From Schizochytrium sp. TIO01 (taxonomy: Eukaryota > Sar > Bigyra > Thraustochytrida > Thraustochytriidae): a stretch of DNA of 20,000 nt. Below, in pieces: positions 15,005 through 18,759 of this stretch. How positions within the stretch are numbered: the first letter of the stretch is position 1; each line of letters starts with the position of its first letter. The stretch covers positions 1 to 20,000 of the forward strand of contig SMSO01000037.1 of the NCBI GenBank assembly GCA_004764695.1, written 5' to 3'. The notes below the pieces were generated by a model. It saw only the letters and a list, made by a program, of their open reading frames with translations. It did not search any database and was not told the origin of the DNA. Made by a program: the position numbers and the translations under genes.

Positions 15005-18000
15005 ATGTCAGACCACCCAGATGTTGTCGATGCCCTTGAGCAGCTTCGGAATGGCGCTACAGCATTGTCGTAGGTTAACATGGTACTCTCGGTCGGTCGC
15101 TCGGTCGGTCGCTCGGTCGGTCGCTTGTTTGCTTGCTTGCTTGCTTGCTTGCTTGCTTGCTTGCTTGCTTGCTTGCTTGCTTGCTTGCTTGCTTGCTTGC
15201 TTGCTTGCTTGCTTGCTTGCTTGCTTGCTTGCTTGCTTGCTTGCTTGCTTGCTTGCTTGCTTGCTTGCTTGCTTGCTTGCTTGCTTGCTTGCTTGCTTGC
15301 TTGCTTGCTTGCTTGCTTGCTTGCTTGCTTGCTTGCTTGCTTGCTTGCTTGCTTGCTTGCTTGCTTGCTTGCTTGCTTGCTTGCTTGCTTGCTTGCTTGC
15401 TTGCTTGCTTGCTTGCTTGCTTGCTTGCTTGCTTGCTTGCTTGCTTGCTTGCTTGCTTGCTTGCTTGCTTGCTTGCTTTGCACGGTGTTGCTTTTGTTGT
15501 TATTGTATTGCAAGTTTATGCAATCGCTTGTTTGTTTGTTTGTTTGATGGATGGATGAGTTGTCTGTTTGAGTGAGTATACATCCATCGAACAAAGAGCA
15601 AAATGACAACACAACAAAGATAAATGCTGAAAGCCAACCTAGATCACTCACGTCCATGCATGTATCCAATGTAATGCATTGCAATGTAATGTATTGCTTG
15701 CCATCATTCAATCAAATCGACAGTCTTTCCAACAACAAAATCGGCTCAGAGGGCGCCAAGGCAGTAGCTGCGGCGCTGAAAGTGAACCGGTCTCTGATAT
15801 CACTTCGGTAAGTTGTGTACGCAACACCGCAGCTCGTGGACTTGTTTGTACATGATGCTTGGTTTGTTGTTTGGTGGGTGGGTCGGTGTTGTTTTGCAAG
15901 TTTATGCAATGGCTTGTTTGTTTGATGGATGGATGGGTTGTCTGTTTGAGTGAGTATACATCCATCGAACAAAGAGCAAAATGACAACACAATAAAGATA
16001 AATGCTGAAAGCCAACCTAGATCACTCACGTCCATGCATGCGTGCGTGCATCTATTGTAATATGTAACGTGTAATGTATTGCTTGCCATCATTCAATCAA
16101 ATCGACAGTCTTTGTGAGAACCATATCGGCGACGAGGGCGCCAAGGCAGTGGCTGCGGCGCTGAAAGAGAACCGGTCGCTGACATCACTTGAGTAAGTTG
16201 TCTACGCAACACCGCAGCTCGTGGACTTGTTTGTACATGATGCTTGGTTTGTTGTTTGGTGGATGGGTCGGTGTTGTTTTGCAAGTTTATGCAATCGCTT
16301 GTTTGTTTGATGGATGGATGAGTTGTCTGTTTGAGTGAGTATACATCCATCGAACAAAGAGCAAAATGACAACACAACAAAGATAAATGCTGAAAGCCAA
16401 CCTAGATCACTCACGTCCATGCATGCATGCGTGCATCTATTGTAATATGTAACGTGTAATGTATTGCTTGCCATCATTCAATCAAATCGACAGTCTTTCG
16501 TGGAACAAAATCGGCTCAGAGGGCGCCAAGGCAGTGGCTGCGGCGCTGAAAGAGAACCGGTCGCTGACATCACTAAAGTAAGTTGTCTACGCAACACCGC
16601 AGCTCGTGGACTTGTTTGTACATGATGCTTGGTTTGTTGTTTGGTGGGTGGGTCGGTGTTGTTTTGCAAGTTTATGCAATCGCTTGTTTGTTTGATGGAT
16701 GGATGAGTTGTCTGTTTGAGTGAGTATACATCCATCGAACAAAGAGCAAAATGACAACACAACAAAGATAAATGCTGAAAGCCAACCTAGATCACTCACG
16801 TCCATGTATGCATGCGTGCATCTATTGTAATCTGTAACGTGTAATGTATTGCTTGCCATCATTCAATCAAATCGACAGTCTTGGAGGCAACGCTATCGGC
16901 TCAGAGGGCGCCAAGGCAGTGGCTGCGGCGCTGAAAGAGAACCGGTCGCTGACATCACTATCGTAAGTTGTCTACGCAACACCGCAGCTCGTGGACTTGT
17001 TTGTACATGATGCTTGGTTTGTTGTTTGGTGGGTGGGTCGGTGTTGTTTTGCAAGTTTATGCAATCACTTGTTTGTTTGTTTGTTTGTTTGCTTGTTTGT
17101 TTGTTTGTTTGTTTGATGGATGGATGGATGAGTTGTCTGTTTGAGTGAGTATACATCCATCGAACAAAGAGCAAAATGACAACACAACAAAGATAAATGC
17201 TGAAAGCCAACCTAGATCACTCACGTCCATGCATGCATGCGTGCATCTATTGTAATATGTAACGTGTAATGTATTGCTTGCCATCATTCAATCAAATCGA
17301 CAGTCTTCAACGCAACGAAATCGGCTCAGAGGGCGCCAAGGCAGTGGCTGCGGCGCTGAAAGAGAACCGGTCGCTGACATCACTAAAGTAAGTTGTCTAC
17401 GCAACACCGCAGCTCATGGACTTGTTTGTACATGATGCTTGGTTTGTTGTTTGGTGGGTGGGTCGGAGTTGTTTTGCAAGTTTATGTAATCGCTTGTTTG
17501 TCTGATGGATGGATGAGTTGTCTGTTTGAGTGAGTATACATCCATCGAACAAAGAGCAAAATGACAACACAACAAAAATAAATGCTGAAAGTCAACCTAG
17601 ATCACTCACGTCCATGCATGCATGCGTGCATTTATTGTAATATGGAACGTGTAATGTATTGCTTGCCATCATTCAATCAAATCGACAGTCTTTCGTGGAA
17701 CGATATCGGCGACGAGGGCGCCGAGGCAGTGGCTGCGGCGCTGAAAGAGAACCGGTCGCTGACATCACTTGAGTAAGTTGTCTACGCAACACCGCAGCTC
17801 GTGGACTTGTTTGTACATGATGCTTGGTTTGTTGTTTGGTGGGTGGGTCGGTGTTGTTTTGCAAGTTTATGCAATCGCTTGTTTGTTTGATGGATGGATG
17901 AGTTGTCTGTTCGAGTGAGTATACATCCATCGAACAAAGAGCAAAATGACAACACAACAAAAATAAATGCTGAAAGTCAACCTAGATCACTCACGTCCAT

Positions 18001-18759
18001 GCATACATGCGTGCATCTATTGTAATATGTAACGTGTAATGTATTGGTTGCCATGGTTTAATCAAATCGACAGTCTTAAAGGCAACGGCATCTACTTAGA
18101 GGGTGCCAAGGCATTGGTTGCGGCTCTGAAACAGAACCGGTCGCTGACATCACTTGAGTAAGTTAATTTAGTAACCCCCCTTGGACTTGTTGGTACATGA
18201 ACCATGTGTGCTTGGTGTGTTGGAATGCACGATGTTGTTTCGTCCAGTTTTGTTTTGCAAGTTTGCGCGATTGCTTGTTCGCTTGATTCTGTTGCTGATG
18301 TTTTGGTTGGGGTGGATCTAACAGAGAACACGACCACATCAAAGGAGAAATGAAATTGTACTATCATTCCTTTGGTACCTTAGATGAGGTTCAATTGTTA
18401 ACTGACGAACGGAGATGATGCTATTTGGTCTGGTAAGTCATAGATTAAGATTGAGCCATGTAGGACAGAGGGAGCTGAAATTGAATGAAGAGATTTATCA
18501 TGCAAAGACACGAAGGACAAGCCTTGAGCAGATCTCTCGTGAGCTTGGTTGTATTCATGCTGTAAACAATGCACTTTCTATACCATCTTCAGTGAAACTC
18601 AGTCGTTTTGCACAGAGTCTGCTTGCTAGCAGTAATGGTGAGCAGAGCTCGAAAGAGGAATTTCTTGCTACGCAGAAAGTAGAGCTTGATATATTGGAAG
18701 CTTTAATCGTTGCCTTTAGTGAATCATTGGGATTGCTGGGCCCTTACATTTTCGAATGA
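15005..18759 (+). CDS. LRR protein gene 2 (9 exons, hypervariable LRR modules)
   Basis: Predicted 313-residue intracellular protein with seven ribonuclease-inhibitor-type LRRs, probably a recognition or binding protein with unknown ligand. Exons: 15005-15069 (MSDHPDVVDALEQLRNGATA), 15724-15807, 16109-16192, 16494-16577, 16879-16962, 17304-17387, 17689-17772, 18074-18157, 18471-18759 (stop TGA). Donors are GTAAGT except GTAGGT in intron 1; LRR-exon acceptors are GACAG. All junctions are phase 2, and the summed length is 942 nt, giving one uninterrupted frame. The 65-nt first exon and the terminal domain (ending LLGPYIFE) match LRR gene 1. LRR consensus: L..N.IG.EGAKAVAAALKENRSLTSL. Introns 2-7 are near-identical copies, five of 301 nt and intron 5 of 341 nt; intron 1 (654 nt) holds (TTGC)87. 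The terminal acceptor at 18469-18470 is the least certain, and an alternative at about 18320 (CTAACAG) would lead to a stop. No signal peptide or membrane segment is seen. Confidence 0.88.
15089..15124 (+). repeat. Three tandem copies of TCGGTCGGTCGC
   Basis: Three perfect 12-bp units lie 19 bp after the intron 1 donor of LRR gene 2. They run into TTGT and then the (TTGC)87 tract, so both are probably products of slippage in a related tetranucleotide tract. Confidence 0.95.
15129..15476 (+). repeat. Perfect (TTGC)87 microsatellite in intron 1
   Basis: A 348-bp run of TTGC without a single interruption lies inside intron 1 of LRR gene 2. The long Leu-Ala-Cys and Gln-Ala-Ser-Lys frames through it on the two strands are products of the repeat and are not genes. 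The intron downstream of it (15477-15723) resembles the 3' part of the other gene 2 introns, whose corresponding site holds only short TTTG runs. The tract is probably highly length-variable and may be collapsed or expanded in the assembly. Confidence 0.97.
15724..18157 (+). repeat. Tandem array of seven LRR exon-intron modules, 385-bp period
   Basis: Seven 84-nt exons start at 15724, 16109, 16494, 16879, 17304, 17689 and 18074. The period is exactly 385 bp (84 + 301) except one of 425 bp, where intron 5 has 40 extra bases in a TTTG-rich part. Introns 3 and 4 differ at 3 of 301 positions, and introns 2 and 3 at 6. Exons B-F (second to sixth) are identical over most of their length. They differ only in codons 2, 3, 5 and 8, the final three bases, and one A/G change in exon F. 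The last module (18074) is more diverged. This is a young duplication array. Confidence 0.95.
16302..16358 (+). repeat. Intronic inverted repeat, one of a conserved set
   Basis: TTTGTTTGATGGATG (16302-16316) can pair with CATCCATCGAACAAA (16344-16358). The stem is 15 bp with one G-U wobble and a 27-nt loop. The same arms occur in intron 1 (3' part) and introns 2-7 of LRR gene 2, for example 15917-15931 with 15959-15973. The stem could bring the intron ends together in the transcript or mark a recombination point. Its presence in every copy may reflect nothing more than recent duplication. Confidence 0.7.

Follow-up and report, generated by a model that had tools for sequence, protein, structure and literature searches.

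Leucine-rich repeat genes of Schizochytrium sp. TIO01 with one repeat per exon and diversity concentrated in predicted ligand-facing codons

In brown algae, including Ectocarpus, Saccharina and others, the LRR-ROCO genes have 72-bp exons and leucine-rich repeats (LRRs) of 23 residues (PMC11378527; Zambounis et al., 2012, as cited in PMC11378527 and PMC4053784). In Tetrahymena, LRR genes are built as arrays of 90-bp exons, for which mostly purifying selection and a link to retrotransposons were reported (PMC6564038). The two groups are the closest kinds to the gene described in this study, which is located in the first 20,000 nucleotides of contig SMSO01000037.1 of the thraustochytrid Schizochytrium sp. 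TIO01 (assembly GCA_004764695.1, forward strand; this whole stretch is referred to as the window). Its seven exons at 15724-18157 are each exactly 84 nt long, are flanked by phase-2 introns and encode one 28-residue LRR per exon. Among 226 units of this kind with a usable intron, which were used for the analyses of diversity, intron distance, linkage and single codons, the mean site diversity was 0.581 at the predicted ligand-facing sites, 0.045 at the core sites and 0.087 in the intron. Literature searches, which covered titles and abstract openings, found no description of this family.

Similar to the brown-algal LRR-ROCO genes, the genes of this family possess one LRR per exon in tandem arrays with phase-2 introns, as read from the DNA, in some members, LRRs that precede ROC-COR, presumably positively selected sites on the concave face, which was placed here by motif, and LRR-only relatives in the same genome (PMC11378527). 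The arrays of three loci, L014, L021 and L032, run on into a long frame. In L014 and L032, this frame matches Roc, COR-A and TIR_2 above the Pfam cut-offs; in L021, it extends past the fetched stretch, and a genome search found matches to both Roc and TIR_2 within a single frame of 873 residues. At the place that we take to be that of the TIR catalytic Glu (CxxE motif), a Glu is visible by eye in the frames of these sister genes. The window gene has a short tail instead, and no Pfam match was found for its C-terminal open frame at 18406-18759. Because some family members end in ROC-COR, the likeness to the LRR-ROCO genes of Ectocarpus, to which a first-pass annotation of the window had pointed, is close. 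Different from the brown-algal genes, however, the exons here are 84 nt instead of 72 bp, the repeats have 28 residues instead of 23, the tail of some genes is ROC-COR-TIR and the genome lacks light-harvesting matches; PMC11378527 mentions TIR for other organisms, at the N-terminus. According to this account, diatoms, oomycetes and Schizochytrium aggregatum have at most 4 ROCO copies per species (PMC11378527), whereas 13 open frames with both Roc and TIR_2 were found here by hand matching of frame sizes and places. Genome-wide, there were 33 TIR_2 matches and 87 Roc matches; the latter include ordinary small GTPases and count several pieces of one gene separately. Adjacency of a Roc/TIR_2 frame to a hypervariable array was seen directly in L014, L021 and L032 of the 13. 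The window gene works like the brown-algal LRR-ROCO genes but, given its different exon length, LRR class, tail and host, is set apart from them and is not counted as a member.

With the LRR genes of Tetrahymena, this family shares its large size and young age in a single-celled eukaryote, an LRR-sized exon per unit, phase-2 introns, a characteristic intron length and, as it seems, enrichment in subtelomeric regions and ectopic recombination (PMC6564038). The exons are 84 nt here and 90 bp there, so that the exact 90-bp length is not shared, and the Tetrahymena account, as far as its passages go, is silent on facing-codon diversity and on ROC-COR-TIR (PMC6564038). Vertebrate NLRs also have ribonuclease-inhibitor-like LRRs with strict exon modularity in human, and conversion and positive selection in zebrafish (PMC6642158, PMC4852459). 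Different from the genes of this study, however, the exons of NLRP3 are 171 bp with two LRRs each, NLRs contain NACHT and not ROC-COR, and the positive selection in zebrafish was reported in B30.2 and not in the LRRs (PMC6642158, PMC4852459).

The 64-Mb genome contains 122 exact copies of a 42-mer from the exon core, and a strict pattern for the exon head gave 284 matches, against 0 in a reversed control. For comparison, 25 stretches of up to 10 kb were fetched, which together with the window made 26 stretches with 290 exon units, the window copy at 1981 not being included. Units had to be exactly 84 nt, to be bordered by AG and GTRAG and to have no more than 20 core differences; 272 of the 290 had at most 4, and none of the 290 contained an in-frame stop. 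Alleles of the facing codons were tallied in 219 of 237 units, after 18 too-diverged units, among them the copy at 1981, had been dropped. Mutual information and codon combinations were determined for 253 units, with the near-duplicates L029 and L030 excluded, and these comprised 231 unique exons and 221 distinct facing-codon combinations. In 19 of the 26 stretches (window included), a cap motif precedes the array, and caps and tails homologous to those of the window gene flank arrays elsewhere. Of the 19 loci whose tail exons were compared, 18 have an intact one.

In the numbering of the LxxLxLxxNxIG motif, the variable codons are x5 (interrupted by the intron), x7, x8 and x10 on the concave face and x13, the residue after IG (post-IG hereafter). 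This placement, made by motif, is the one that the first-pass annotation had proposed. Diversity was 0.42-0.72 at 14 of the 15 facing sites and 0.21 at the remaining one (position 15). The most diverse core sites were position 45 (0.43, Ala/Gly) and position 66 (0.21, Arg/Gln), and two intron sites had a diversity of at least 0.42. The values were similar when one exon was taken from each of 24 stretches including the window (facing 0.56 vs. core 0.06) and in a looser set of 271 units (0.59 vs. 0.06). When blocks of the same sizes were placed randomly in the exon with overlap allowed, the observed mean diversity of the 271 units was reached in 2 of 100,000 trials. Together with the agreement of the one-exon-per-stretch comparison, this result indicates that the facing-site pattern is no chance effect.

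The same distribution is found within the window gene. As reported in the first-pass annotation, 9 of the 21 bases past the first Leu codon differ between exons B and C (positions 6, 7, 8, 9, 14, 16, 23, 24, and 25), as do 2 of the last 3 bases (82 and 83), and all other bases of the two exons are identical, while the introns that follow them differ at 3 of 301 positions. The variable residues and junction codons that it had listed for exons B to F were also recovered. Two details can be added: among B to F, position 35, a core site, varies as well (Lys/Glu in F), and the end exons A and G carry core changes beyond the pattern of B to F. The introns and the core are much more uniform than the facing codons, and neutral drift after duplication does not fit, as the annotation had held.

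The facing codons are also largely decoupled from their flanks, with almost no linkage to sites beyond a few bases. Among 42 pairs of units from different contigs whose introns were at least 99% alike, 3.21 of 4 facing codons differed, x5 differed in 83% and no pair shared all four codons; the mean of all 25,070 pairs was 3.29 of 4. In the 26 pairs from the same contig with introns at least 99% alike, 2.42 of 4 codons differed. In the three closest bins of intron distance (7, 17, and 46 pairs), 2.0, 2.9, and 3.0 of 4 codons differed, respectively; in the closest bin, all 7 pairs come from a single locus, and 3 have all four codons in common. Linkage at p < 0.001 was found for 45% of 42 pairs of neutral sites 12-30 nt apart, against 0 of 10 facing-versus-neutral pairs, and for 0 of 21 intron-facing pairs less than 30 nt apart; neutral sites 100-200 nt apart were still linked in 23% of 122 pairs. 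Core-intron pairs less than 30 nt apart were intermediate (7.7% of 26).

Moreover, the alleles of two facing codons are whole triplets. Among 232 unique exons, the post-IG codon is TCA or GAC in 215, where independence of the bases would predict 57, and exon positions 82-84 are ATC, CAA or TGA in 180, where it would predict 35.5; position 82 of these triplets is a silent Leu base. Free assortment of bases would produce 24.4 stops at x7, 4.2 at x8 and 9.4 at x10, and there were none. Two pairs of loci are nearly identical: L024 and L029 differ at 34 of 9,073 aligned bases (99.4% alike over 9 kb) and L011 and L030 at 8 of 6,765. The mismatches between L024 and L029 fall mostly in one tract of ~150 bp that runs from position 49 of the exon to within the intron and resembles a gene conversion. 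The triplet alleles, the near absence of linkage and the near-identical loci speak for reassortment of existing codon alleles over fresh mutation. The exchange between units that the first-pass annotation had suggested is likewise indicated by the conversion-like tract and by the decoupling of the codons from intron similarity. By eye, the tail protein of L024 is chimera-like, its first half resembling L011 and its second half L009, which may be a further sign of exchange between genes.

The most probable explanation, in our judgment, is that diversifying selection acts together with short-tract ectopic conversion in a large receptor-like LRR family, the rest of which undergoes concerted evolution. 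Diversifying selection is suggested because the variable codons are at facing positions and their diversity is far above that of the introns, and conversion because linkage is lost, alleles at two codons are whole triplets and one tract is conversion-like. The family proteins are probably intracellular and receptor-like, with genes often near contig ends. Selection would keep the five facing codons diverse for binding many or changing ligands, and short-tract ectopic conversion and unequal exchange among hundreds of similar units would reassort these codons nearly codon by codon. The same conversion and exchange would homogenize introns and scaffold codons. In the ROC-COR-TIR sister genes, domain matches place the same kind of repeats before a GTPase switch and a TIR signaling domain. 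A likely role, we infer, would be the detection of intracellular parasites, for example viruses.

Several results weigh against this explanation. The concave-face placement rests on the motif and not on a structure of this protein, and expression, splicing and selection in populations are predictions from one assembly. Units broken by indels fall outside the 84-nt scan and are uncounted, and the tail exon appears weakly constrained, with a pairwise ratio of nonsynonymous to synonymous differences (pN/pS) of 0.87. Among the facing codons, pN/pS was clearly above 1 at x8 alone (1.66), and was 1.05 at x7, 1.05 at x10 and 0.91 at the post-IG codon. As these sites are near saturation, the argument for selection rests on the excess over introns and not on dN/dS. 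In addition, all four codons are shared by 8 of the 26 pairs that lie on the same contig and have introns at least 99% alike. The loss of linkage is also incomplete: 1 of 74 core-facing pairs less than 30 nt apart is linked at p < 0.001, and mutual information exceeded that of shuffles for x7-x8 (z 16.8), x7-x10 (5.4), x8-x10 (5.5), x7 and the post-IG codon (3.5), x5 and x7 of the next exon (3.9), and x5 and core positions 65-66 (3.0). The fetched loci contained no close donor for the divergent version of the tract in L029. Differences confined to a single codon were one-base differences in 16 of 38 cases at x7 and 16 of 26 at x10, as point mutation would give. Finally, at a given distance, the facing codons show less linkage than neutral or core sites do, beyond what plain unbiased conversion would yield. 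Thus, conversion alone is insufficient, and selection for switching or a local process is needed.

The one-base differences at x7 and x10 and the high ratio at x8, as well as the many x8 and x10 alleles that are one base apart, would also be consistent with birth-and-death evolution under strong positive selection on point mutations, in which conversion solely homogenizes and the mosaic arises by repeated independent substitution. At x8, 4 of 13 single-codon differences were one-base. However, between alleles of the post-IG codon, as between those of the junction, all three bases or nearly all have changed and intermediates are few, one base of the junction is silent, and three-base changes account for 6 of 6 pairs that differ solely at the post-IG codon and for 16 of 36 single-codon differences at x5. 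An origin of the mosaic by point mutation is considered unlikely, although it deserves to be kept in mind.

Lamprey variable lymphocyte receptors consist of LRR cassettes with variable concave residues, which are assembled by copying from donors, somatically in lymphocytes. A lymphocyte-free analog of this assembly would exist in Schizochytrium sp. TIO01 if the intracellular LRR and LRR-ROC-COR-TIR repertoire were diversified within clonal lineages by hyperlocal, codon-sized copying, with the hundreds of units, many of them close to contig ends, serving as a mutual donor library. Different from the somatic variation of the lamprey receptors, only variation within an assembly was seen here, and we regard such diversification within clones as rather improbable.

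The restriction of variation to short blocks, the near absence of linkage between facing codons and flanks and the mostly fixed third base (C in 158 of 219 units at x8 and T in 217 of 219 at x5) might be explained by targeted hypermutation of the facing codons, either retroelement- or deaminase-like. The near-identical loci L024/L029 and L011/L030, however, showed 0 changes in the 95 facing codons of 19 exons, although only a fast mutator would be revealed by pairs so alike. In a collinear block of three units shared by L025 and L026, 1 of 15 codons has changed, by three bases at x5, despite introns 2.2% apart; this block was picked without reference to codons, as the one run, among 60 with three or more consecutive units, that passed a filter for rare intron lengths. 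Moreover, 34 unit pairs, a set chosen on its codons, share all five codons while their introns differ at up to 62 of 254 sites. The discrete triplet alleles at 2 of the 5 codons and the lack of stops also disagree with such a process. Because the duplicates are unchanged and the alleles are triplets, targeted mutation, which the first-pass annotation had offered as one possibility, is unsupported, and we consider it very unlikely. Targets of diversity-generating retroelements show random substitution at template adenines and rapid change in duplicates; the triplet alleles and the unchanged near-identical loci do not agree with such a target, and no retroelement search was made.

The scaffold residues are those of the structural LRR consensus, which speaks for relaxed constraint, with facing codons that drift freely beside a scaffold under purifying selection; this explanation is rejected as highly improbable, because it is contradicted by the introns, which are freer and yet far less diverse. 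The tandem repeats with their long (GCTT)n run and some small contigs that are possibly alternative haplotypes, such as those of L024/L029, could invite collapse or misjoining of repeats, but assembly errors would not fall chiefly on the facing codons, create no stops and leave the triplets whole in many separate stretches, which makes an artefact barely conceivable. Taken as a whole, the first-pass interpretation is partly supported.

The array clusters are often found near contig ends. Of the 32 clusters listed on contigs of known length, 22 are no more than 110 kb from a contig end, where 12.7% would be expected (binomial p 3e-13); the 110-kb limit was set after the data had been viewed, the clusters were counted by hand and neighboring clusters are not independent. 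Six of the 22 end-proximal clusters are on contigs shorter than 240 kb, which are possibly alternative haplotypes. In the two stretches inspected for TTAGGG-type repeats, none were seen. The genome contains no match to the light-harvesting family PF00504, and a match to PfaA of polyunsaturated fatty acid synthase scored 1157 bits, over the curated cut-off, with neighbors. These results point to a thraustochytrid and do not resemble those expected of a brown alga. The host of the family is apparently non-photosynthetic and probably single-celled.

As predicted from the DNA, the window gene encodes a protein of ~320 residues with a cap, seven 28-residue ribonuclease-inhibitor-type LRRs and a short C-terminal tail. 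The 28-residue repeat with LxxLxLxxNxIG agrees with the ribonuclease-inhibitor-like LRR (Pfam LRR_6); a typed four-repeat protein matched LRR_6 (PF13516) with an E of 8e-34, and ribonuclease-inhibitor-like LRR chains were among the best PDB matches. All parts of the gene are on the + strand. The N-terminal cap exon (MSDHPDVVDALEQLRNGATAL, 15005..15069) ends at a phase-2 donor, gtaggt, and no signal peptide was seen in it by eye. The putative first intron (15070..15723) holds the (GCTT)n run at 15123-15478, which comprises 89 copies of GCTT. LRR exons A (15724..15807), B (16109..16192), C (16494..16577), D (16879..16962), E (17304..17387), F (17689..17772), and G (18074..18157) are 84 nt each, and G has the most core changes of the seven. 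The introns after A (15808..16108), B (16193..16493), C (16578..16878), E (17388..17688), and F (17773..18073) are 301 nt each, and the one after D (16963..17303) is 341 nt and contains a TTGT run at 17069-17115. The C-terminal exon, of the LRR-only class, is at 18450..18759, with a predicted acceptor. Since 84-nt exons are flanked by phase-2 introns, the frame would survive the duplication, deletion or skipping of a whole repeat; splicing and skipping of these exons are predicted from the sequence.

GCTT length differences were likewise observed upstream of the L024/L029 and L011/L030 arrays, and contig C24 terminates in a GCTT repeat beside L028. In L033, the cap motif runs into a stop codon in place of the sense codon that precedes the splice site in other caps, and this locus is perhaps a broken copy. 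A second subfamily at G000:C4:246000-266000, near Roc frames, has GAT and not GAC as its post-IG Asp codon. The window also contains a diverged gene of the same plan at 912..3096 (+), with a cap exon at 912, 84-nt LRR-like exons at 1143, 1558, 1761, 1981, 2164, and 2360 and a last frame at 2680-3096. Its exon at 1318 is 85 nt with an in-frame stop, and its introns are shorter and dissimilar. Elsewhere in the window, the frames 9658-11724 (+, 688 aa) and 4502-6661 (-, 719 aa) look related by eye; the former has a weak APH match just below the Pfam cut-off. The frame 11828-12412 (-) has a Fic/DOC domain match over the Pfam cut-off.

The family extends the exon-shuffled LRR receptor families to a thraustochytrid protist and adds a C-terminal TIR domain to them. 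Its hundreds of similar units provide an unusually clean side-by-side view of selected codons and their neutral neighbors. If the host is culturable, within-clone receptor diversification, a question raised for brown algae, would be directly measurable.

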